From Phycisphaerae bacterium (lineage in GTDB: Bacteria > Chloroflexota > Anaerolineae > 4572-78 > J111): a stretch of 64,000 nucleotides of DNA. The stretch spans positions 42,653-106,652 of the forward strand of contig JANQQF010000077.1 in assembly GCA_028285035.1 (NCBI GenBank), in the 5' to 3' direction. The first letter of the stretch is position 1, and every line of letters starts with the position of its first letter. This document shows, in pieces, positions 45,152 to 57,424 of the stretch. The notes under the pieces are model-generated. The model was given only the letters and a program-made list of their open reading frames with translations, ran no database searches and had not been told where the DNA came from. The position numbers and the translations under genes are program-made.

Positions 45152-45622
45152 TTGAGTTCTGTTCGCCTCAGAGGTAGTGCACTGATTATTGAAAATGATG
45201 CAGTCCTACTCATCGAGTATGATGATGAGAATGGACTGCATTACAATATTCCTGGGGGCGGGGTTGAGGCGGGAGAGTCGATCAAAGAGGCCGTCATTCG
45301 GGAAGCGAAAGAAGAAGCCGATATCGTGGTTGAGGTGGGGCCGCTGATCCTGGTTTATGAATACGCGCCGCATCTTGCAGACAATGAATTTGGTCCACTA
45401 CATCAAGTTAATTTCATCTTTCATTGCTATCGCTCATCCAAAACCGTAGCCCAGATGCCTGAAACACCAGACCCACACCAAACAGCAGTTAAATGGGTTC
45501 CTCTGACCAAGTTGCTAGATGTTATGCTATACCCCGAAATCAGCCCCAAAATTATCGCATACACTACAGGCAAATTAACGCCACCCATCTTTTTGGAATA
45601 TTCAGACCTTACTCACCCCTAA
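45152..45622 (+). CDS. NUDIX hydrolase
   Basis: A 156-residue NUDIX protein with the box GGGVEAGESIKEAVIREAKE (about 35-54) then EADI. The box's last Gly is replaced (EEADI for EEXGU), a minor deviation; the catalytic REAKEE is kept. The TTG start has GGAG six bases upstream; a TTG four codons earlier is less likely. The end overlaps the convergent DUF1501 gene by 14 bases. Confidence 0.85.
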   Translation: MSSVRLRGSALIIENDAVLLIEYDDENGLHYNIPGGGVEAGESIKEAVIREAKEEADIVVEVGPLILVYEYAPHLADNEFGPLHQVNFIFHCYRSSKTVAQMPETPDPHQTAVKWVPLTKLLDVMLYPEISPKIIAYTTGKLTPPIFLEYSDLTHP

Positions 45623-46868
45623 CAACACCCTGAAATGTTGGGGAAAAGATGGGAAAAATTTGGTCCAGATGTGGATTATTGAGACGGCGCTGGATGACCT
45701 CAGCTAGAATGTCACGATAATCGATGGTCACGGCCAAGTCACCGGGACCAATGAGTTGTTCGGGAGCGAGACCCGGCCACTGAGTATAAACCTGTCCACC
45801 GTGGACATTACCGCCCAGCAGGACCATCGCCCCACCGTGGCCGTGATCAGTGCCTAAGCCACCATTTTCCTCCAAGCGACGGCCAAATTCGGACATCACC
45901 ACAATGGTGATTTTGTCAGTGTACTCAGTCAAATCGAGATAGAACGCCGCCAAGCCCTCGGCTAATCCCCTCATCAAATTGGCCATCAAACCCTCACTCC
46001 CCCCTTGAGCGATATGGGTATCCCAACCCCCAACATCCAGACAAGCGACCTCAAGCCCGACCTCCGCTTTGATCAGGGTGGCTACCTGTCGCAACCCCAA
46101 ACCAAATTCATTATCGGCATAAATGGCTCCGTGGGCTGGTTTGTAGCCTAGCGGATCAAGGGCATTGACCGCTTCCAAAGTGTCCATCGCTTCTTGGGCC
46201 GCCTGATCCAACGGGTCGCCCAGATTATAGAGGATGGCCAGGGCTGATTGCATCTCGGCCAAAGCTTGTGCATCGTTGCCTAAATGAAAATCGGCGATGG
46301 AGCGCAGAGCGGTGGCAGGCACGGGACCACGCAATGAGCGAGCCACCATCTCACCGATGCTCACGCCGCGCAAGGGGGAGAGATTGCCCGTGTCCAACGT
46401 CGCCAGATGTCGGCCCAACCAGCCAGAGGCAGGGCCAGTGGAAGCATCTACACCACGCTCCATCAGTTCCATTGCCTTGAAATGAGAGCGAGACTCATCT
46501 GCAGAACCAACCGCGTGGACTGCGGCGAGGTGCCCCGCCTGCCATATTGGCATCAATGAAGCCAACGCTGGGTGTAAGCCAAAAAAGCCATCCAAATCGA
46601 CAGTGCGGTAGGGTTTCTCGGTACGCAGGGCATCGGGGCGGGCAATAGACAAGGTGGGACGATATTGGTAGTAATGATTATCGCCGTGGGGCACAATCAT
46701 ATTCAGCGCGTCTGCAGCGCCACGAAGAAATACACAGACAAACACATCACCACGCGGGGCGGAATGAGGTGGGGCAAAGGCTAAACGAGGCATCCACTGT
46801 GGCCAAGCAACGGCAGCCGGCAGAGTCGACATCATTTTCATAAAATTACGACGGGTTAGGGTTTGCAT
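45609..46868 (-). CDS. DUF1501 exported protein
   Basis: A 419-residue protein of the DUF1501 family. The twin-arginine-like signal (TRRNFMKMMSTLPAAVAW) precedes the alkaline-phosphatase/sulfatase-like fold. Conserved segments are VFLRGAADALNMIVPHGDNHYY split over about 45-66, GLHPALASL, GWDTHIAQGG, VMSEFGRRLEENGGLGTDHG and GGAMVLLGG. DUF1501 genes are nearly always paired with DUF1800, as here. The ATG has AAGGA eight bases upstream. The function of the pair is unknown. It is probably transcribed from the ECF-type promoter at 49002. Confidence 0.9.
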   Translation of the reverse strand: MQTLTRRNFMKMMSTLPAAVAWPQWMPRLAFAPPHSAPRGDVFVCVFLRGAADALNMIVPHGDNHYYQYRPTLSIARPDALRTEKPYRTVDLDGFFGLHPALASLMPIWQAGHLAAVHAVGSADESRSHFKAMELMERGVDASTGPASGWLGRHLATLDTGNLSPLRGVSIGEMVARSLRGPVPATALRSIADFHLGNDAQALAEMQSALAILYNLGDPLDQAAQEAMDTLEAVNALDPLGYKPAHGAIYADNEFGLGLRQVATLIKAEVGLEVACLDVGGWDTHIAQGGSEGLMANLMRGLAEGLAAFYLDLTEYTDKITIVVMSEFGRRLEENGGLGTDHGHGGAMVLLGGNVHGGQVYTQWPGLAPEQLIGPGDLAVTIDYRDILAEVIQRRLNNPHLDQIFPIFSPTFQGVVRGE

Positions 46869-46888
46869 TTGGGGTATCCTTTCTATTT

Positions 46889-48379
46889 CTACCGCCACTG
46901 AAACGTGGGTGAGCCTAGTAGGGCGGCCAACACGATGCTATTATCGTCTGAAGCACTGAGAAGTTGTTTGGCAATGGTTTCTGGCAGTGGTTGCCCGAAC
47001 AAGGCAATGCTGAACTGATTGAGAAGATTGAGCCGAGAAGTATCACCACCCGAGAGGTTGACAAGTTGCTTAAGATCTAATTCGGTACCGGAAAGATTAT
47101 TTTGGGCCAGAGTGAGCGCAAATCGCCAGCGCGTGAACAAGCTGCTTTGCCAAAATTCAGATTGGTCGGGAAAGCCATCAGGGGTTGGCCATTGAAAAAG
47201 AGGTTGCCCCATCTGAGCCAACGCCTTGAGAATGGCTTCACTCCCATTTGTTTGGGCATTCAATTGCCGGAGGGTACTCACGATGTACTCAAAAGGTCGT
47301 TTCAGTTTTGGTTGTAGCGTCTGGGGAGCACGACGCTCATCTGTATTTGTAGGTAAAACTTCAGGGGCAAGCAAAATGGTTCGCAACGTGGCCGTGATAT
47401 CCCCTTGGGTTTGCAGAAAGGTTTGGGCCGCTCTGGCAATCAAGGCAGGGGGTGGATCATCGGCAATAAAACGACGAACCAATTTGGTAGCGATAAAGTG
47501 AGCGGTGTCTGGATGCGTCGCTAACATCTCAATCACTCGATCCAGACCGTGCTCTTTAGCCCCAGCCGGGATCGTTAGCCCAAAAACTTCTTTTGGCCCG
47601 TCATCGTGACGATTTTCGTTGAAGGTGATTTGGCCCCGATAAAATCGTTTCTTGATAGTCCAGCCAGTTAGACAGCGGGCTAACTCCTGCACGTCGGTTT
47701 GGGTGTAGCTGCTATCAACGCCCAAGGTATGGAGTTCTAACAGCTCACGGGCGTAATTTTCATTGGGATGCTTGACGTGATTTTCCTGATTATCGAGATA
47801 AAATAGCATCGCGGAGCTATGGGCTGAGGCGTAGAGTAAATCGTAAAAATTTCCCAACGCGTGCGGCCGAATAACCTCCCGGTCATCCACGGTTTTCAGC
47901 CAAGCACAATACCCTTTATTCTGATCGATATGAAAGTGATTGCTCCAAAAGTCGACCATCACTTCATATAGCTGCCGATGACTGTAAGTCGCTCGTAACA
48001 CCGTTGCCTGCTGGAGTTCACGTTTGGCGACATCATCTTCAACATCAAACAGATCAGGGGCATCAAGATACAATGTTTCCAAGCGACGTAAAGCGAGGCG
48101 TAGGGTGAGATCCATCTCTGGCAGAGTTTCTGGAGCCAACTGATTTTCGATAAAAGCCGCCAAGCCAGCTTTAGCAACCTGCTCACGTTCCTGAATACGC
48201 GGGCCAAATGTTACCCGATTGAGCAATCGCCATTCGGCAGAGGTCATTGCCAACGGCCATTTATTAACCTCGAAGGTTGGGTTTAACAAAGTGTTAGGAT
48301 CACAGGCTGTCAGCGCGGTTGTGGCAGTGACAATACTAGCCATTTTTATAAATTGACGACGATTGATTAATGTGCTCAT
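46889..48379 (-). CDS. DUF1800 exported protein
   Basis: A 496-residue DUF1800 protein. It has an N-terminal NRRQFIKMA signal of Tat type with a possible lipobox (TALTAC, Cys 26). Conserved motifs are LLNRVTFGPR, DFWSNHFHID, NENYARELLELHTLGVDSSY and ARCLTGW. The family is helical, exported and of unknown function, coupled with DUF1501. It lies 20 bp upstream of DUF1501. The upstream member of the operon is a membrane protein 23 bp away. Confidence 0.9.
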   Translation of the reverse strand: MSTLINRRQFIKMASIVTATTALTACDPNTLLNPTFEVNKWPLAMTSAEWRLLNRVTFGPRIQEREQVAKAGLAAFIENQLAPETLPEMDLTLRLALRRLETLYLDAPDLFDVEDDVAKRELQQATVLRATYSHRQLYEVMVDFWSNHFHIDQNKGYCAWLKTVDDREVIRPHALGNFYDLLYASAHSSAMLFYLDNQENHVKHPNENYARELLELHTLGVDSSYTQTDVQELARCLTGWTIKKRFYRGQITFNENRHDDGPKEVFGLTIPAGAKEHGLDRVIEMLATHPDTAHFIATKLVRRFIADDPPPALIARAAQTFLQTQGDITATLRTILLAPEVLPTNTDERRAPQTLQPKLKRPFEYIVSTLRQLNAQTNGSEAILKALAQMGQPLFQWPTPDGFPDQSEFWQSSLFTRWRFALTLAQNNLSGTELDLKQLVNLSGGDTSRLNLLNQFSIALFGQPLPETIAKQLLSASDDNSIVLAALLGSPTFQWR

Positions 48380-48402: not shown

Positions 48403-48954
48403 CTACTTGGTCATCGCTAACCGTTGGGACAATAGGGTTGGCGCATCAGTTGACGTGGATGCTTGGGTGGGGCGTGCTTCCCAGCCAAGCAGAGCGAAAA
48501 TCGCGGCCCCTAAGGTGATAATGAAGGTCAGAGGAATAAAGATAAACCAACCGATGAAGGGAAAAATCGCCGCAAGTTCCAGGGCAATCGCGCCGCGTAT
48601 CGTGGCCGCCATTGGCGAGACATCTCCCCCCAAGCGTTGAAAACGTTCCCCCATTAGCACAGCCAGACCAGCTGCACCGATGCTGGTTACAGTAACCAAG
48701 AGTAACAATGCAATCCCACCAATCGCTTTGAGTGGACCAAAGGGAAGACTAAAAAAAATAATGACAGGAATTGAGTAGCCAATCAAAAAAACTGATCCCA
48801 GCCAGAAACATCGCCAAGGGGTTTGAACTAAACGGTACTGGGCCCGTTTAACCGTATTTGGGAAAACCAAGTGCCAGGTCAAGAGCAGACCGGGCAGGGC
48901 AATTCCAATCGTGAGTAAGGTGCCAAATACTGCAAATACATCAGCCATAATCAT
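48403..48954 (-). CDS. Multispanning membrane protein (paralogue of 49111-49692)
   Basis: A 183-residue membrane protein with about four helices (about 5-27, 47-68, 75-98, 125-155) and a Ser/Thr-rich tail. It shares with the neighbouring gene the order and the motifs TPW..F(W/F)(L/I)G, LGLPGL/AAGLAVLMGER and FVGWFI(L/F). It follows GGAAAGG at seven bases and is the first gene of the DUF1800/DUF1501 operon. An ATG two codons inside is possible. I do not know the family. Confidence 0.65.
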   Translation of the reverse strand: MIMADVFAVFGTLLTIGIALPGLLLTWHLVFPNTVKRAQYRLVQTPWRCFWLGSVFLIGYSIPVIIFFSLPFGPLKAIGGIALLLLVTVTSIGAAGLAVLMGERFQRLGGDVSPMAATIRGAIALELAAIFPFIGWFIFIPLTFIITLGAAIFALLGWEARPTQASTSTDAPTLLSQRLAMTK

Positions 48955-49001
48955 AAGTCCTTTCCTTTCCATATCAATGTGTTCTAAAAGTGCTTTCTAC
49001 T

Positions 49002-49033
49002 TGATATACAGGGCTAAGAAAAAAAAGTTACAC
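49002..49033 (-). promoter_or_regulatory. ECF-type promoter for the membrane protein/DUF1800/DUF1501 operon
   Basis: Read on the minus strand: TGTAACTTTT, 16 bases after TAAC, then TGTATATCAAGTAG. The same two elements lie before the sigma factor gene at 50870-50903 with one base different spacing, so the sigma factor probably drives both. This is about 50 bp before the start of the first gene. Confidence 0.65.
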
Positions 49034-49110
49034 AATGGCTCGAATATATTAGAGATTGGGGATTGGAAGATAACTTGGGTCAATGTAACGACCCACACTC
49101 ACTCCAGTCT

Positions 49111-49692
49111 CTACATCCCTATTCCCTGACTCCATTCTTCCGTCACCTGTTTTCGATGTCGCCAGGCCAAGATTGCTGTGCCAAATGAAAGCATCAACAA
49201 AATTGGACTGAGAATGAACCAACCGACAAAAGGAAGGAGGACAGCAAATTCGATGATGAGGGCACCCCAAATCGTTTGTTGCCATTTCGACATTGGGTGT
49301 TCACGCATTGCCGCCAGTCGCTCACCAAGGAGAGTTACGAGACCAGGCAATCCCAAAGCCGTAACAATGATCAAAAAGCTCAACAAGATTAAGCCAATCA
49401 GTCCTAAAAACTCGACCTCTGTACTAAATAAAGCCAAACTGATTCCTCCAAAAAAGAGATAATTGACAAGACCGATAAAGAAGGCTTGCCAGGGGGTGCG
49501 AGCTATGGCGGCCCGCCCGCGTTGGGTTGTGCCTGGGAACATCGCAGCCACAAAAAGAATGAGAGCAAGTAGGCAAGCAATCGTAGCTGCGAGTACGACC
49601 AACAAAGCGACCCCATTGATCAGCCGGTTGATCGCTGTATTGCTTTGCCACAGAGGGCTGAGTAGTATCTGCATTAAAAGGTAATTCATCAT
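49111..49692 (-). CDS. Multispanning membrane protein (paralogue of 48403-48954)
   Basis: A 193-residue membrane protein with about four to five helices. It starts at an ATG sharing a base with the anti-sigma gene stop (TAATG), with GGAGG close upstream. It is similar to the next gene downstream in length, helix arrangement and in the motifs TPWQAFFIGLV, LGLPGLVTLLGER and FVGWFILSP. It is the third gene of the sigma operon, so it may be involved in sensing or be a target. A gap of 130 bp carrying the second ECF promoter follows. Confidence 0.7.
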   Translation of the reverse strand: MMNYLLMQILLSPLWQSNTAINRLINGVALLVVLAATIACLLALILFVAAMFPGTTQRGRAAIARTPWQAFFIGLVNYLFFGGISLALFSTEVEFLGLIGLILLSFLIIVTALGLPGLVTLLGERLAAMREHPMSKWQQTIWGALIIEFAVLLPFVGWFILSPILLMLSFGTAILAWRHRKQVTEEWSQGIGM

Positions 49693-50288
49693 TAAACCTC
49701 CATGTTTCGATGTTGTTGGCTTGGCCGTAACAGAAGCAAATTTCCAAATAGCCAAACCAGACTTAATCCGCCAAGTGTTAACAGGCCAACCAGAGAAAAG
49801 GCATCAAAGCCTGGAATATCAAACTGTGGGGGCCATTGGGTTTGGCCCAGCTGCTCTAGCTCGACAACGATTTCAGCCAGCCAGTCACTGAGGGAAAAGC
49901 CAATTTCATTAACAGTCAGCCAAAATTGTCCGACCACTTCATTCCCAATTGTCACTTGGAACATTGATTGCGCGAAGAGGAGTAAAATAAGCCCAATCAT
50001 TGCTTGACCGACTAAGAGTAAGCCTCCCAGTAATGTGTAGCGCGGTGTGACTGGGGCTGGTGACAGTTGATCCATCACATCCGATACGATATCCGGGACA
50101 GGGCTATCTTCTAAAGAGTCTAAATCAACAAACAGTTGTTGTACCTCAGTCAACAATTCCTGACAGGACTCACAACTTGTTAGATGGAGCGAAAACTCTG
50201 TCTGCTCAGTTGTAGATAGTTCGCCATCGAGATAACGGTGCACCATCTCTTCTTGACCTGAACAAAACATCTCACTATATTTACTCAT
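49692..50288 (-). CDS. Anti-sigma factor with zinc-finger (zf-HC2) domain
   Basis: A 198-residue protein. The N-terminal anti-sigma domain has the zinc motif HLTSCESC (H35, C39, C42). There are two membrane helices (about 87-109 and 167-187) with an extracytoplasmic loop between. Such proteins sequester an ECF sigma factor at the membrane until a signal releases it. It overlaps the sigma gene by four bases and the next membrane gene by one base. Confidence 0.88.
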   Translation of the reverse strand: MSKYSEMFCSGQEEMVHRYLDGELSTTEQTEFSLHLTSCESCQELLTEVQQLFVDLDSLEDSPVPDIVSDVMDQLSPAPVTPRYTLLGGLLLVGQAMIGLILLLFAQSMFQVTIGNEVVGQFWLTVNEIGFSLSDWLAEIVVELEQLGQTQWPPQFDIPGFDAFSLVGLLTLGGLSLVWLFGNLLLLRPSQQHRNMEV

Positions 50289-50854
50289 ACATCTCCTCGC
50301 TTTTCGAGAATTTTCCGCAGTTTTTTGCGGGTGCGAAATAGGCGAACTTTAACATTAGCCAATGACAACTCTAATTCCTTGGCAATTTCTTCATAGGATA
50401 GCCCCTGAAAATGGCGTAGTTCAATTAACAGGCGCTGCTCAGCGGGCAGTTCAAGCAAGGCTCGGCGAATGGCGACCTGTTTTTCAGCCTTTAGGAGTCG
50501 GACTTGCGGTTCCGCCGATTGATCCGGAATTTCAAAAACGGTTCGATTAGTATCGGCCTCCAAGGAGATGGTTGGCCGCCGTTGTTTGAGCCGATTGAGG
50601 GCAAGGTTAATTGAAATTCGACACAGCCACGGGGCTAAGGAACGATCTTTTTGAAAAGAAGCTAGAGCCTGATAGCCACGAAGAAAGGCATCTTGGGTTA
50701 TATCAGCAGCCTCGTCCTGATGACCCACAAGCCGATAGGCGGCATTGTAAACGGCCTGCTGATGACGTTCGACAATTAATCGATACGCCGCCTGCTGACC
50801 CGCTAACACCTGGGCCACAAGTTGTCCATCTGTTGGCTCTGATAAATCGGTCAC
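50285..50854 (-). CDS. ECF RNA polymerase sigma factor
   Basis: A 189-residue sigma-70 family protein with region 2 (about 20-90, DEAADITQDAFLRGYQAL and WLCRISINLALNR) and region 4 (about 125-180, LRHFQGLSYEEIAKELELSLANVKVRLFRTRK), and no regions 1 or 3. The start is GTG with AGGAGG upstream. It is followed by the anti-sigma factor with a four-base overlap. A promoter-like motif of the ECF type lies immediately upstream, suggesting autoregulation. Confidence 0.92.
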   Translation of the reverse strand: MTDLSEPTDGQLVAQVLAGQQAAYRLIVERHQQAVYNAAYRLVGHQDEAADITQDAFLRGYQALASFQKDRSLAPWLCRISINLALNRLKQRRPTISLEADTNRTVFEIPDQSAEPQVRLLKAEKQVAIRRALLELPAEQRLLIELRHFQGLSYEEIAKELELSLANVKVRLFRTRKKLRKILEKRGDV

Positions 50855-50869
50855 AAACCTCCTCCTACG

Positions 50870-50903
50870 TGATATACAACCTTATCACCGCAAAAGTTAC
50901 ACC
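50870..50903 (-). promoter_or_regulatory. ECF-type autoregulatory promoter before the sigma gene
   Basis: On the minus strand TGTAACTTTT lies 17 bases (counted after TAAC) before TGTATATCACGTAG, close to the canonical ECF form TGAAAC-N16-CGTA. The -10 is 15 bases upstream of the GTG, so the transcript would have a very short leader containing the AGGAGG. A MITE-like repeat lies 10 bp further upstream. Confidence 0.65.
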
Positions 50904-50913
50904 ATCTTCCTAA

Positions 50914-51026
50914 CAGGACTTAGGCAAAACGTTAATTGAGCCTGTCGAAAATAACGTTTTGCGATTTAAAAGGTCTGGTTTCGACAAGCTCAACCGACAT
51001 TTTCCATGTATTCTGCGTAAGTCCTG
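50914..51026 (+). repeat. MITE-like dispersed repeat, copy 2 (both ends intact)
   Basis: A 113-bp element with inverted termini CAGGACTTAGGCA and TGCGTAAGTCCTG (one mismatch). Two inner inverted repeats are present: CAAAACGTT/AACGTTTTG and GGTT..AACC. Its right half (reverse complement AGGACTTACGCAGAATACAT) matches the start of copy 1 at 293 almost exactly, so the copies are in opposite orientation. No reading frame. Probably a non-autonomous mobile element inserted directly upstream of the ECF promoter. Confidence 0.75.
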
Positions 51027-51159: not shown

Positions 51160-51705
51160 ATGTCGCGTTTTGAACAGATTATTGATCCCCCAAACAACTC
51201 TGAATTGAACGATATTTATCAAGAAATGGTCGAAACTGGGGTTACTATCAACAGCAAAACTCCCATCAACTGGTTTACATCCCAATCAATTCGCCCTGAT
51301 ATCTTAGAAGCAACTTGGGAATTTAGTAAAGCAATTTTTTTGGAAGGACAACTTCCATTCACCTTAAAAGAGATGATTATACTAGCGATTTCTGTTCAAA
51401 ATAATTGCGAATATTGTGCGGTTACCCATACCCAGGTGCTGGAAAGTCTGGGGGTTTCTCAAGAGGTTATTGAAAGTTGCAGATTTAATCTAGACAGTAC
51501 GGCTATTCCGCCTGTCCAACAAGAAGTTCTTAGGTTCGCATTAAAGGCAGCTGTACAACCGTTAGCAATCACCAATGATGATTATGAGCTACTCAGAGAT
51601 TATGGCTTAAGTGATGAAGAAATTTTAGAAATTATCGCTGTCGCTGTATCAACAAATTTTATTAATAGCTGGGCCGACACCACTGCATTACTGCTAGACA
51701 AATAG
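51160..51705 (+). CDS. AhpD-like/carboxymuconolactone decarboxylase family protein
   Basis: A 181-residue helical protein with the AhpD-type redox motif CEYCAVTH (C83, C86, H90). This is the peroxidatic CxxC-xxx-H arrangement of AhpD and related alkylhydroperoxidases. The rest, e.g. FTLKEMIILAISVQNNCEYC and DEEILEIIAVAVS, fits the family. The electron donor is unknown. It is followed by a paralogue at 10 bp, clearly a tandem duplication. Confidence 0.88.
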   Translation: MSRFEQIIDPPNNSELNDIYQEMVETGVTINSKTPINWFTSQSIRPDILEATWEFSKAIFLEGQLPFTLKEMIILAISVQNNCEYCAVTHTQVLESLGVSQEVIESCRFNLDSTAIPPVQQEVLRFALKAAVQPLAITNDDYELLRDYGLSDEEILEIIAVAVSTNFINSWADTTALLLDK

Positions 51706-51715
51706 GAAAAACCAC

Positions 51716-52252
51716 ATGGATAAGTCAAGCACCTCAACCATTCTACAATCCACATCAATTGAAACTATTAAACAAAGTGTTTCTGATCAGCTAAAAACCG
51801 ATATGCTTGCTAATTGGGCCTTAGCCTCAGAAATTCGGCCCGATTTAGAGTTGGCTCGTCAAGCCCTATCGGCTAGGCTTTTTTATAGTGGTCAAATACC
51901 CCCTGCTCTAAAACAAATGATTGCGATGGCCTTGTCCAAACAAAATAATTGTGATTATTGCTCCATCCTTCACACCAAAGTTTTAGAAAAAATTGGTATA
52001 CCTGAAGATGTGATTGAGAACTCAGTTAGCCAAGTTGATATGTTACAGATTCCGCCAACCTATCGGAGCATTTTAAAGTTTACGCTTAAGGCATCAAAAG
52101 CACCGCTCGACATTACCGATGATGATTTTGAAGTATTACGCGAGCAAGGCCTAACCGATGAAGAAATTCTTGAAATCACAATGGTTGTTGCTTATCTCGA
52201 TTTGGTTAATACTTGGACGCAAGTCCCACCCATTCCACCTCGATCTGAGTAA
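51716..52252 (+). CDS. AhpD-like family protein, tandem paralogue
   Basis: A 178-residue protein with the same fold and motif CDYCSILH (C79, C82, H86). It shares with the preceding gene the segments IRPDLE/IRPDIL, LK(Q/E)M, EVL..GL(S/T)DEEILEI. The N-terminal 20 residues are Ser/Thr-rich and different. It lies 37 bp upstream of the histidine kinase gene and may be cotranscribed with it. Confidence 0.88.
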   Translation: MDKSSTSTILQSTSIETIKQSVSDQLKTDMLANWALASEIRPDLELARQALSARLFYSGQIPPALKQMIAMALSKQNNCDYCSILHTKVLEKIGIPEDVIENSVSQVDMLQIPPTYRSILKFTLKASKAPLDITDDDFEVLREQGLTDEEILEITMVVAYLDLVNTWTQVPPIPPRSE

Positions 52253-52289
52253 AAATCTGAGTTAGCCACTGAAGGTTTGACATATTCCT

Positions 52290-55200
52290 ATGACAGATAC
52301 GCCTGTTAATCTAAAGTCTCTATCCCCTGCAAATAACGCAGAAACCTGGCTCAGTCTGGGTGTTTTGCATGAAGCTGTAAAATCATTTTCTGAGCAATCC
52401 TGCCTTGAGACATTTTGGTCTTGCGTCTGTAAAAATGCCCGTTGGATTATTCCGGCTAAACGAACGTGCATTGTTCTATGGGAGCCAGATGCGCAATGTC
52501 AGGTTGTTGAAAGAATGGAACGTGGCAGATTGCTGGGGGCAATCGGTCAACAGGATGAGGCTGAGGTCAACCTACTCAAACTTGTTCGACACAGTCAAGG
52601 AATCCAATGGTTCAATTCACCTTGGGGCGCAGAAGACCATTCGCATTCTATGTGTCAATGGCTCCTACAAGACGATCCCACCGCAGTCTTAACAGTTCCC
52701 ATTCAAAAAAATAATGAGAACATTGGGGCAATTTTATTTGCCCTCCATAATTTGGGCGAAGCAGATCGGACCATGCTCAGTTCATTAGCCACAGGGTACG
52801 CCCTTTATGTGAGTATGACCTATGCTTTTCTCGAAACCAATGACACGTTAAAGCGCACGAACCAACAGCTAGAAATTGAGATTGAGGAACGCCAAGACAT
52901 TGAGACTGAACTACAACAGTACAAACTTCATCTTGAAGATCAAGTTGAGGAACGAACTCAAGCGCTCACGGAAACAAACAAGAAACTATCTTCTGAAGTT
53001 GAGGAGCGAGCACAAACTCAATCTGCCTTGTGGCTACAGGAAGCTCGTTTACGGGCATTGTATGATATTACAACCCGGTCTGAGTTCAGTATAGCAGAGC
53101 AATTCGAAGCGACTCTAGAGATCGGGACAAGTATGCTTGGCCTTGAATTTGGTCTTATTAGTCACATAGAAAATGGAACATATACAGTCCTTCACACTTA
53201 CGCTCCCGAAGTATCGATAGAGCCTAATGACGTATTTCCAATCGGCCACACCTATTGTGAAGAAACCATTCAAACCAAGTCCGTTGTCGCCATCAATCAT
53301 GCGGCCGCGTCTCCTTATGCAAAACATCCTTGTTATCAAAACTTCCAATTCGAGTCTTACATTGGCGTAGCTATCGAGGTTGACGGCGAACCATTCGGCA
53401 CTTTAAGCTTTTCAAGCTTATATCCCAAAAAAACAGCATTCAATCAATCTGACAAAGATTTTATCCAACTAATTGCACAATGGGTGGGAAGCACGATTGA
53501 ACGTGAGCGCGCCGCTGAAATGTTACAACTGACAAAATATTCGATTGATACCTCATCAGAGGCGATTTTATGGGTTGATCAAAATGGCAAGATATTATCG
53601 GGAAATCAGGGGGCAAGTAATAGTTTAGGGTATTCTATCCAAGATCTAGAGACAATGTTTGTCTTCGATATTGATGTATTTTTAACGCCTGAATATTGGC
53701 CAGATCACTGGGCTGAACTAAAAGAAGTAAAAACAATTCGAACGACATCACAGCATCAAACGAAAAACGGCCAGGTATTCCCAGTTGAAGTTGATTTAAC
53801 GTATATCGAGTTTAATGGCAAGGGCTACAACTTTGCTCACATACGTGACATTACAGAGCGTGAACAGGCAGAAGCAAATATTAAAAATGCAAATATCCAT
53901 CTACAACAGCGGGTCAATGAGTTAGCTGCACTTAACCGAGTGACAGAAACGGTTACGTCTGGCTTTAATTTAAATCAAGTTCTCAAGACAATTAATGAGG
54001 AGCTTACAAAGCTCCTCACGGCCGACACCTGTGGCATTGCCCTGCTTAATCCTGAAAAAACAGTTTTAACTGTTGTGGCAGAATACTCTGTGCTGCCTAA
54101 TATCCAGAGCTCTATTGGTATAACGATGCCGTTAGATGAAAATCCATTTTCAGCTGAAATTATCGATACACAGCAGGCAATGGTTGTTGAAATCCCTCCT
54201 ATTGTGGCTGACACTGAAGAGTATCAAAACATTTTAAGTAACCGGCATGTTTTCAGCATGATCATCGTGCCTCTCATCATTCGTGGTGAGGTGATTGGAA
54301 CAATCGGTTTAGCGAACAATACAAACTCTGCCAGAACCTTTTCAGACCAAGAATTACGACTTGTTGAAACATTTGCCGGGCAGGCCGCAGGTACTGTTGA
54401 TACCGCTAGGTTGTTAAGAGAAGAACAACGTCAACGGCAAATTGCAGAAAGCTTGCGCGAAATTTCTATTGTCTTAAATAGCAGCTTCAATCAAGAGGAA
54501 ATTCTTAGCCTCATCTTTGAACAATTAGGACAAGTATTAGATTATGATGAGGCTGGTATATTTTTACAAGATGGATCAAATTTGAAACTGGTGGCTGACA
54601 CTACCTCGCAGGCCATCGATATTGGTTTTAATGTCCCTCTATCAGGTCAAGATCCAGCCGTGCGTGTTTTCAATCGTAACCAGTTGCTCATCATCCCTGA
54701 TGTACACTTAGACTCTGGTTGGGAAATTTGGGAAGAGGGGGAATGGGTTCGGGCTTGGGTGGGGGCACCCCTTGTGGTCAAGGGTCAACCAATTGGGGTC
54801 CTCACCGCCGACAGCCGAGCCATAAATGCCTTTCAAGCCGAAGATGGCGATATCCTTGAGGCATTTGCCCACCAAGTGGCAACTGCCATTCAAAATGCCC
54901 AACTATTTCAACAAGAGCAACGGCAACGACAAATTGCGGAAAGTTTGCGTCAAGTTTCAACTGCGCTCAGCCAAGAACTTGATCGGGATAAAATTCTAAA
55001 CATTGTTTTCGATCAACTCCAACAGGTCATTGATTATGATAGTTCTGCTTTATTTTTACTAAATGGGCAGGAAATTGAACTTGTGGCTGGACGCAACTTG
55101 CACGACACTTTTATCGGCCGCCGTTTATCATATGATGATCCAAACCCTACTGCTGAAATTCTCAGAAAGAAAACATCAATTTTCGTATCAGATGTTCATC

Positions 55201-57047
55201 AAAATCCAGGCTGGGTTACTTGGCCGGGTGGGGAGCCTATTCGAGCGTGGATGGGGGCACCAATTGTTACCCAAGAGCAGTTGATTGGAGTCCTCACCCT
55301 CGATAACTACATTGTAAATGCATATGATGATGAAGATGTTCAGATTCTCCAGCTATTTGCTAATCAGGTGGCAATTGCCATTCAAAATGCCCAACTATTT
55401 CAACAAGAGCAACGGCAACGACAAATTGCGGAAAGTCTACGTCAAGTTTCAACTGCGCTCAGCCGTGAACTTGATCGGGATAAAATTCTAAACATTGTTT
55501 TCGATCAACTCCAACAGGTCATTGATTATGATAGTTCTGCTTTATTTTTATTAGATGGAGAAGAGTTGGAACTCTCTGCTGGGCGAAACCTCCACGGTGA
55601 TTTCATCGGTATCCGCTTGCCTATTGATGACATAAACCCCACAGTCGAAGTTATCAGAAACAAAGAACCAATTTTTGTCTCAGATGTCCGTGAAGATCCA
55701 AGATGGGATTTATGGTCGGATGAAGAACTGATTCGGGCCTGGATGGGAACACCAATTGTCACCCAAGAGCAATTGATTGGGGTTCTCACCCTTGATAGCT
55801 ATTCCGTGGATGCTTATGATGATGAGGATGTTCGGCTTCTCCAATTATTTGCCAACCAGGTGGGCATTGCCATCCAAAATGCGGAGCTTTATGCTGAGGC
55901 CCAACACGAAATTACAGAACGGAAGCACGCAGAGATCGCCTTAAGAGAAAGTGAAGCTCGTTTCCGGCATATTGTTGAAAACGCTGGTGATGCCTTCTTT
56001 ATCCACGATTTAGAAGGCAATCTTATTGAAGTGAATGAAGCAGCTTGTCGGCAATTGGGTTACAGTCGAAGTGAGCTTTTAGCCGTTAATCTGCAAGATA
56101 TCGTTTATCAGGATCCCGAAGCAAATCCCAATCAACCGCCAGCGACAGGCGTCCCGGTGACCCTGGAGGCTAACCATACCCATAAAGATGGCACAATCTT
56201 TCCCGTTGAGGTCCGCCTAGTCAAAGCCGAATTTGGGGGAAGAGACTTAATTTTAGCTCTGGCCCGCGATATCACCGCTCGTAAACGATATGAAGAAGCC
56301 ATTACCGAAGCTCGTGATAAGGCATTGGAGTCAAATCGGCTTAAGAGTGAGCTTTTGGCAAAAGTTAGTCACGAATTACGAACCCCACTGGGCGCAATTC
56401 TGGGGTATGCCGAATTAATTCAGGATGGGATTTTTGGTGAGATACAAGAACCTCAAGCCGAGGCTCTCTCAGAAATTATCGATAGTACAAATTACTTGAC
56501 TGTGTTGGTCAAAGAACTCCTTGATCAGGCCCAGCTTGAAACGGGTAAGGTACAAATTGAAACCGAACTATTTTTAGTACAGGATTTAGTTAAACAGGCT
56601 GATGCTCAAATGCGGGTGTTGGCTCAACCCAAGAACTTAGATTTAATTTTCAATATCGCAGATGATGTACCCCAGACATTAGTTGGCGATCAAAATCGAT
56701 TGCATCAAATTTTGATTAATTTGGTGGGCAATGCTATAAAGTTTACAGATGAAGGCAGGATTGAGGTCAAAATTTATTGTCCCGATGTTGACCATTGGTC
56801 CATCGCCGTCTCAGATACAGGGCAAGGTATTCCGCCCGAAGCCCAAACCTATATATTTGAGCCGTTCCGCCAAGTTGATGGGACAATTACCCGAGAAACT
56901 GTAGGAACGGGGTTAGGTTTGTCCATTGTAAAACAGTTCACGTCTCTGATGGGTGGGGAAATCTCATTGGAAAGTACCATCAACCAGGGAAGCACATTTA
57001 TTATCACCTTACCTATCATACCTACAATTCAGGAGACATCGTCATGA
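52290..57047 (+). CDS. Giant sensor histidine kinase with GAF and PAS domains
   Basis: A 1585-residue cytoplasmic kinase. In order: GAF-like (about 20-190), coiled coil (190-255), GAF (260-405), PAS (411-535), GAF (547-705), three GAF units repeated every 164 residues (711-1200), PAS (about 1221-1345), HisKA and HATPase. The phosphorylated His is H1361 in KVSHELRTP. The ATPase motifs are NRLHQILINLVGNAIKF, DTGQGIPP and GTGLGLSIVKQF. No membrane helix or receiver domain is present. The coupled receiver gene overlaps its stop by four bases. The signals sensed are unknown; redox or small cyclic nucleotides are possibilities. Confidence 0.92.
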   Translation: MTDTPVNLKSLSPANNAETWLSLGVLHEAVKSFSEQSCLETFWSCVCKNARWIIPAKRTCIVLWEPDAQCQVVERMERGRLLGAIGQQDEAEVNLLKLVRHSQGIQWFNSPWGAEDHSHSMCQWLLQDDPTAVLTVPIQKNNENIGAILFALHNLGEADRTMLSSLATGYALYVSMTYAFLETNDTLKRTNQQLEIEIEERQDIETELQQYKLHLEDQVEERTQALTETNKKLSSEVEERAQTQSALWLQEARLRALYDITTRSEFSIAEQFEATLEIGTSMLGLEFGLISHIENGTYTVLHTYAPEVSIEPNDVFPIGHTYCEETIQTKSVVAINHAAASPYAKHPCYQNFQFESYIGVAIEVDGEPFGTLSFSSLYPKKTAFNQSDKDFIQLIAQWVGSTIERERAAEMLQLTKYSIDTSSEAILWVDQNGKILSGNQGASNSLGYSIQDLETMFVFDIDVFLTPEYWPDHWAELKEVKTIRTTSQHQTKNGQVFPVEVDLTYIEFNGKGYNFAHIRDITEREQAEANIKNANIHLQQRVNELAALNRVTETVTSGFNLNQVLKTINEELTKLLTADTCGIALLNPEKTVLTVVAEYSVLPNIQSSIGITMPLDENPFSAEIIDTQQAMVVEIPPIVADTEEYQNILSNRHVFSMIIVPLIIRGEVIGTIGLANNTNSARTFSDQELRLVETFAGQAAGTVDTARLLREEQRQRQIAESLREISIVLNSSFNQEEILSLIFEQLGQVLDYDEAGIFLQDGSNLKLVADTTSQAIDIGFNVPLSGQDPAVRVFNRNQLLIIPDVHLDSGWEIWEEGEWVRAWVGAPLVVKGQPIGVLTADSRAINAFQAEDGDILEAFAHQVATAIQNAQLFQQEQRQRQIAESLRQVSTALSQELDRDKILNIVFDQLQQVIDYDSSALFLLNGQEIELVAGRNLHDTFIGRRLSYDDPNPTAEILRKKTSIFVSDVHQNPGWVTWPGGEPIRAWMGAPIVTQEQLIGVLTLDNYIVNAYDDEDVQILQLFANQVAIAIQNAQLFQQEQRQRQIAESLRQVSTALSRELDRDKILNIVFDQLQQVIDYDSSALFLLDGEELELSAGRNLHGDFIGIRLPIDDINPTVEVIRNKEPIFVSDVREDPRWDLWSDEELIRAWMGTPIVTQEQLIGVLTLDSYSVDAYDDEDVRLLQLFANQVGIAIQNAELYAEAQHEITERKHAEIALRESEARFRHIVENAGDAFFIHDLEGNLIEVNEAACRQLGYSRSELLAVNLQDIVYQDPEANPNQPPATGVPVTLEANHTHKDGTIFPVEVRLVKAEFGGRDLILALARDITARKRYEEAITEARDKALESNRLKSELLAKVSHELRTPLGAILGYAELIQDGIFGEIQEPQAEALSEIIDSTNYLTVLVKELLDQAQLETGKVQIETELFLVQDLVKQADAQMRVLAQPKNLDLIFNIADDVPQTLVGDQNRLHQILINLVGNAIKFTDEGRIEVKIYCPDVDHWSIAVSDTGQGIPPEAQTYIFEPFRQVDGTITRETVGTGLGLSIVKQFTSLMGGEISLESTINQGSTFIITLPIIPTIQETSS
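54422..55897 (+). repeat. Three tandem 492-bp GAF-coding units
   Basis: The linker GAACAACGTCAACGGCAAAT at 54422 recurs at 54914 and 55406 (GAGCAACGGCAACGACAAAT), exactly 492 bp apart each time. It codes for EQRQRQIAESLR. Units two and three are almost identical at DNA level over their first half (nearly all of about 150 bases), while unit one is more divergent. This indicates a recent duplication or gene conversion within the kinase gene. Confidence 0.85.
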
Positions 57048-57424
57048 ATCCCCCACTAGCCCTTATCATAGAAGATGATTCAAAGTTATCGAACATCTTT
57101 TCATTAACCTTACAATCGGCTGAATTTAATACCGAGGTCGCCCTAGATGGTCAAGTTGCGATGAAGCGCTTGGCAAATCTTATACCAGACATTATTTTGC
57201 TTGATTTACATTTACCTCATATTTCAGGCATAGATATTCTACGCCGAATTAAATCAGATGATCGCTTGGCGAAAACAAAAGTGATGGTTGCGACAGCAGA
57301 TGCTTTATTGGCCGAAGAATTGCAAGATGAAGCAGATTTAATCCTCCTCAAGCCAATCAGCACCAGCCAACTTCGGGATTTAGCAGTTCGCTTCCGCCCC
57401 CTCGATTTATCCTCGGATAATTAG
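57044..57424 (+). CDS. Single-domain response regulator coupled to the kinase
   Basis: A 126-residue receiver: acidic pocket EDD (10-12), phosphoacceptor D54 in IILLDLHLP, Thr in VATADA, Lys in LLKPIS. It overlaps the kinase gene by four bases (ATGA), so kinase and receiver are very likely partners. There is no output domain. Confidence 0.9.
   Translation: MNPPLALIIEDDSKLSNIFSLTLQSAEFNTEVALDGQVAMKRLANLIPDIILLDLHLPHISGIDILRRIKSDDRLAKTKVMVATADALLAEELQDEADLILLKPISTSQLRDLAVRFRPLDLSSDN

Follow-up and report, generated by a model that had tools for sequence, protein, structure and literature searches.

Genes and Promoter-like Elements at the Locus

The window, by which we mean the whole stretch of 64 kb that was analyzed, carries on its minus strand, in this order, a promoter-like element (P1), the genes of a sigma factor, an anti-sigma factor and a membrane protein (memA), a second element (P2), and the genes of another membrane protein (memB), a DUF1800 protein and a DUF1501 protein. 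The sigma factor (50285..50854, minus strand, 189 aa) matches Pfam Sigma70_r2 (residues 27-93) and Sigma70_r4_2 (127-179), and the combination of sigma-70 regions 2 and 4 with a length of about 190 aa assigns it to the ECF sigma factors. Its nearest named relatives come from Chloroflexota assemblies. Among NCBIfam models the SigW model NF007223 gives the top score, but this score (134.9 bits vs. 209) and that of TIGR02948 (115.3 vs. 243.1) are below the cut-offs.

The anti-sigma gene (49692..50288, minus strand, 198 aa) overlaps the sigma gene by 4 bases. Its product scores above the cut-off of Pfam zf-HC2 and shows the zinc finger Hx3Cx2C as H-LTS-C-ES-C, which would place it in class I of the zinc-finger anti-sigma factors, for which the available part of PMC7406223 gives the Hx3Cx2C domain as the criterion. 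Two hydrophobic stretches in the hydropathy profile (about residues 84-115 and 160-187) predict that it is anchored in the membrane. The sigma operon ends with memA (49111..49692, minus strand), which according to hydropathy encodes a multi-helix membrane protein. MemA and MemB are paralogues with 35% identity over 133 residues, and neither protein of the window gave a match to a Pfam family. A hairpin follows memA at 49095-49076; as the hairpin scan returned 3 hairpins vs. 7.4 in shuffled sequence, it is no evidence for a stop of transcription.

The second operon begins with memB (48403..48972, minus strand), the likely start of which lies near 48948 at a conserved MADV. It is followed by the DUF1800 gene (46889..48379, minus strand), whose product matches PF08811 with an E-value of 1.5e-129 and 433 bits against a curated cut-off of 26.1, and carries a twin-arginine motif and a lipobox cysteine. 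Within the memB-linked subtype of DUF1800 the residues R7, R8 and C26 are invariant in 47/47 aligned sequences, and the protein is therefore predicted to be a Tat-exported lipoprotein. The DUF1501 gene (45609..46898, minus strand, likely start near 46868) matches PF07394 (E 2.5e-36, 126 bits against a curated cut-off of 27) and its product starts with the twin-arginine-type sequence LTRRNFMK.

ECF promoters generally consist of an AAC -35 box and a spacer of 16-17 bases. P1 (50865..50901, minus strand; TGTAACTTTT-N13-TGTATATCACGTAG) is an ECF-type promoter element about 10 nt ahead of the GTG start of the sigma gene, and P2 (48997..49032, minus strand; TGTAACTTTT-N12-TGTATATCAAGTAG) is the same element ahead of memB-DUF1800-DUF1501. 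The pattern TGTAAC-N16/17-TGTATATCA matches exactly two places of the window, 49002-49032 and 50870-50901 of the minus strand, while none of 100 dinucleotide shuffles of the window contained one. The gap after TAAC is 16 bases in one copy and 17 in the other, and the trailing AGTAG and CGTAG of the two copies are found at 48997-49001 and 50865-50869. The initial annotation had described two such minus-strand copies with these spacings, found nowhere else in the window and standing in front of the operons sigma/anti-sigma/memA and memB/DUF1800/DUF1501. All of this was reproduced and so were the ends at 49002 and 50870, whereas the outer ends it gave (49033 and 50903) deviate by 1-2 bases. The sequences around P1 and P2 agree at only 16/50 positions in the 50 bp upstream and 16/40 in the 40 bp downstream. 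With flanks this dissimilar the two sites are not part of a recently copied block, and the promoter elements are what they have in common.

Upstream of P1, at a distance of 13 bp, lies a 113-bp element (50914-51026) with 16-nt inverted ends (CAGGACTTAGGCAAAA and TTCTGCGTAAGTCCTG) that are 88% complementary. It looks like the remnant of a small mobile element; no further copy of its ends was found within the window, and an inner 17-mer occurs once more at 323-339. Divergent from the sigma operon, the region 51160-57424 (plus strand) contains two adjacent carboxymuconolactone-decarboxylase-like genes, followed by genes of a 1585-aa multi-GAF/PAS histidine kinase and a response regulator.

Conservation of the Element in Related Genomes

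Genome-wide tests were done in Chloroflexota relatives of the window. An alignment of 62 sigma homologues led to 52 loci from genome contigs, mostly of Chloroflexota. Sigma, memB and DUF1800 occur together in 14/52 loci (L007, L008, L010, L012, L015, L018, L019, L022, L024, L039, L042, L044, L045 and L046). MemA was detected by tblastn in 13 of these 14 and in L042 only by a later profile search, and DUF1501 is present in 12; in the other two, L007 and L019, the contig breaks off inside DUF1800. The anti-sigma factor is frequently too divergent for detection by tblastn.

Almost every locus inspected has the sequence TG(C/T)AACTTTT-N12/13-TGTA directly ahead of sigma, and by inspection a second copy was recognized ahead of memB in L010, L012, L019, L044 and L045. 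In seven loci (L011, L012, L014, L016, L017, L023 and L025) the ATG of sigma lies only ~12-15 bases past the TGTA box, so close that these sigma transcripts are probably leaderless.

For quantification a two-box matrix was trained on 31 sigma-upstream sites of loci without visible memB or DUF1800, some of which stem from genomes with memB elsewhere. Applied to the window, this matrix ranks P1 and P2 as the top two sites (22.5 each; next best 16.5). The background was drawn from loci selected by protein (1.2 Mb in total) and comprised 6027 windows of 380 bp. At a score of 9, a cut that was chosen once the scores were known, 61/66 sigma genes (a count that includes the training sites) and 25/34 memB genes (a count that does not) were positive, compared to 1.7% of the background, so that the linkage seen in the window recurs in related genomes. 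The same cut gave no site upstream of anti-sigma (0/65), memA (0/62), DUF1800 (0/38) or DUF1501 (0/38). Raising it to 15 left 59/66 sigma and 20/34 memB genes, with 0.13% of the background. Six of the 34 memB genes (L140, L147, L149, L153, L199 and L201), all positive, had entered via motif matches; 19/28 are positive without them, and the six genomes were also found by protein alone.

Selection by the protein profile of memB alone, which matched in 14/400 genomes of the phylum at E <= 1e-25, gave 12/14 genomes with the element ahead of memB (G043, G162, G193, G292, G325, G338, G350, G355, G361, G382, G386 and G391; G001 and G035 have none). In the class, 23/298 genomes matched at E <= 1e-15, memA-type genes included. 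The distribution of the system is patchy. Taken from these alignments and scans, TG(C/T)AACTTTT-N12/13-TGTA is a conserved promoter-like element of the sigma operon, a second copy of which precedes memB-DUF1800-DUF1501 in most lineages sampled, also when this operon is distant.

The second promoter is less constant than the genes. No site was found for 9/34 memB genes, among them that of L097, the nearest sampled relative, where the gap between memA and memB is 50 bp and P2 is absent; co-regulation would need read-through there. The gap is also short in the other site-less loci L103, L104 and L105 (50-184 bp with L097), whereas L007, L008, L015, L024 and L039 have a gap of 241-976 bp and yet no good site. 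In a sigma tree of 50 rows the window groups with L002-L005 and is close to L007 and L103-L105, which are without second promoter. The two-promoter label changes 5 times on this tree when weak sites are included, and at least 3 changes are forced by well-supported branches. Together with L097 this indicates that the second promoter has been gained and lost while the association of the genes persists. In lineages without it, one long operon may serve the same end. As a side observation, the memA-memB gap of L007, L103, L104 and L105 is filled by short degenerate repeats, e.g., CGAAATTCGAAATTC or GGAGATTGGAGACTGGAGA.

Specificity and Limits of the Proposed Regulon

The strict pattern TGYAACTTTTN{11,14}TGTA has 74 matches in 396 genomes, and its reversed control has about 95 (hand count). 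The pattern is thus not over-abundant, and it is its placement that is special: 33/74 matches are accounted for by 25 directly before this sigma factor, 7 directly before memB and 1 directly before a second DUF1800-DUF1501 pair at another place of the same genome (G016). The other 41 matches are scattered; for 40 of them the surrounding sequence, up to 3 kb in either direction, was examined and contained none of the six cluster genes, and the remaining one (G004) lies at a contig end.

Sixteen genomes that were scanned earlier yielded 13 strict matches, including two in G007 (L063 and L066) that lie away from the cluster. In G007, a strict match outside the cluster (L128, 3807, plus strand) precedes the gene of a multi-helix membrane protein, which is possibly an extra member of the regulon, or the match is due to chance. 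The match in G016 (L124, 6714, minus strand) lies before a divergent DUF1800-DUF1501 pair of about 26% identity and without memB.

The 30 genomes with the system contain 52 matches to PF08811, of which we assigned 30 to the memB type. The upstream regions of all 22 others (L124 with one gene, L216-L235 with 21) were examined: L124 has a strong site (27.2), L221 a borderline one (9.2) and 20 have no upstream site. Control of all DUF1800/DUF1501 pairs by this sigma factor is therefore rejected, with only 1/22 other DUF1800 genes behind a strong site. Four remote clusters of a membrane protein gene with DUF1800 and DUF1501 (L119, L120, L121 and L123) do not have the element either; their membrane protein genes were counted as memA because of the better score there. 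The compact regulon under a membrane-tethered ECF system that the initial annotation predicted for the pair in general hence very likely exists, as an autoregulated one, for the memB-linked subtype of DUF1800/DUF1501 only. Of its further proposal, that the system controls export of the pair, control of expression is what the promoters predict, while export is a separate matter for which the Tat-type signals of the proteins speak.

Probable Control in trans and Alternative Explanations

In five genomes (G162, G181, G195, G246 and G256) sigma and memB-DUF1800-DUF1501 are located on different contigs, with both sigma and memB at least 3.8 kb from the nearest contig end. All five unlinked memB genes carry the element (G162 18.0, G181 23.7, G195 22.6, G246 17.7 and G256 20.3), the site of G162 being detected by the matrix only and missed by the regular expression. 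The operons also lie on separate contigs in G226 (22.3), G350 (25.6) and G386 (15.7), but a nearby contig end leaves linkage open in these three. Most relatives are metagenome bins, so that the unlinked contigs could partly reflect mixed bins. These operons provide what we consider the strongest evidence suggesting control in trans, and they argue against local duplication and against read-through as general explanations.

MemA and memB are paralogous and adjacent in the window, with P2 between them, and the motif might hence be a by-product of a tandem duplication with no regulatory meaning for DUF1800/DUF1501. We regard this origin as extremely improbable, as the element is kept before memB away from sigma in 5/5 genomes, the flanks of the two sites in the window are dissimilar, and no memA gene has the element (0/62). 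Somewhat less remote, but still improbable, is that P2 is little used and that transcription from P1 reads through into DUF1800/DUF1501 as part of one long operon. Both operons do lie on the same strand, and L097 and L103-L105 show the order from sigma to DUF1501 or adjacent memA and memB genes without a second site. Against this, most loci retain the site ahead of memB, as do genomes in which read-through is impossible, and even with read-through DUF1800/DUF1501 would be controlled by the same sigma factor.

The element could also be read by one or several other ECF sigma factors of the same cells instead of the neighboring one. ECF genes are numerous in these genomes (profile matches at 1e-30 in 379/396), and other ECF sigma factors may well read a similar element. 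As the sole explanation this is very unlikely, because the element stands before 61/66 genes of this sigma factor, the usual sign of autoregulation, and because a third of the strict matches in the 396 genomes (25/74) are found at this position.

Our preferred explanation, which we hold with considerable confidence from comparison of the sequences, is an autoregulated ECF sigma/membrane-bound zinc-finger anti-sigma system of Chloroflexota that would drive its own operon and the memB-DUF1800-DUF1501 operon. In such a system the anti-sigma factor would keep the sigma factor at the membrane until an envelope signal releases it. The freed sigma factor would then transcribe its own operon, leading to amplification and, through the anti-sigma factor, to a reset, and in addition the target operon, the products of which would be a membrane protein, a Tat-exported DUF1800 lipoprotein and a Tat-exported DUF1501 protein resembling the alkaline phosphatase superfamily.

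Relation to Known Systems

The system resembles SigW/RsiW of Bacillus in having a sigma factor with regions 2 and 4 and an overlapping gene for an anti-sigma factor with zinc finger and membrane helices. The autoregulatory promoter with AAC -35 box and a spacer of 16-17 bases also has its likely counterpart in the promoter-like element described here. It differs in that the sigma factor of the window falls under the SigW cut-off, has its own promoter sequence and has memB-DUF1800-DUF1501 as target, and in that there are two paralogous membrane proteins, one per operon.

DUF1800-DUF1501 pairs adjoin bacterial chitin synthase genes, with a predicted common operon cited in the accessible portion of PMC5122149. 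There, too, the two Pfam families are adjacent and DUF1501 carries a twin-arginine signal. However, these pairs belong to proteobacteria and that portion describes no sigma system, whereas here memB and an ECF promoter are present. Clusters with DUF1501 in Planctomycetes and Verrucomicrobia (PMC4452313, as far as its text was available) are similar in that the gene clusters with those of exported proteins, but the partners are others and the same text describes no such regulon. DUF1800 and DUF1501 are both listed in a type VI secretion table (PMC6653060, in excerpt). The regulation of DUF1800/DUF1501 is not treated in the accessible parts of PMC5122149 or PMC6653060, and among the matches listed for literature on DUF1800/DUF1501 with sigma factors and on ECF factors of Chloroflexi there was no report of the regulon.

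DUF1800 and DUF1501 frequently occur as a pair, and the value of the system lies in providing a regulator for a protein pair that has been unexplained. A conserved and nearly single-target regulon can serve as a handle: induction of the sigma factor should activate the pair, whose purpose should in turn become apparent from what induces the sigma factor. Because the two operons are unlinked in a number of genomes, the prediction can be tested in many Chloroflexota.

Possible Function of the Predicted Target Operon

The DUF1800 protein is modeled with confidence (pLDDT 91.3) as a mostly helical structure, to which no solved structure gave a clear match. For DUF1501 the model is poor (pLDDT 53.5). 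In Foldseek the top ranks for this poor model are taken by proteins of the alkaline phosphatase superfamily, led by 3lxq_B (E 1.6e-3, prob 0.99), with no hit at E <= 0.001. The Asp/His motifs of DUF1501 are conserved, D63 and WDTH in 12/12 rows and TDHGHG in 11/12, one row being cut by a contig end. The products of memB, DUF1800 and DUF1501 probably act together at the cell surface. Tentatively, and with doubt prevailing, this could be a surface phosphoryl- or sulfuryl-transfer activity of DUF1501, with DUF1800 as helical lipoprotein partner and MemB as partner in the membrane.

The duplicated membrane protein is encoded once in the sensor operon and once in the output operon, an arrangement that suggests a feedback loop. 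One could imagine a two-module circuit for envelope surveillance in which the Tat-exported lipoprotein DUF1800 and the phosphatase-like DUF1501 protein work with MemB, and the state of this machine is sensed by MemA together with the anti-sigma factor. We think this rather unlikely; if true, the DUF1800/DUF1501 pair would gain a defined regulator, an input and a feedback loop. In one sigma cluster without memB or DUF1800 (L014, 4325-9975), genes for predicted lipoproteins alternate with memA, and these lipoproteins may be the targets of the sigma factor there.
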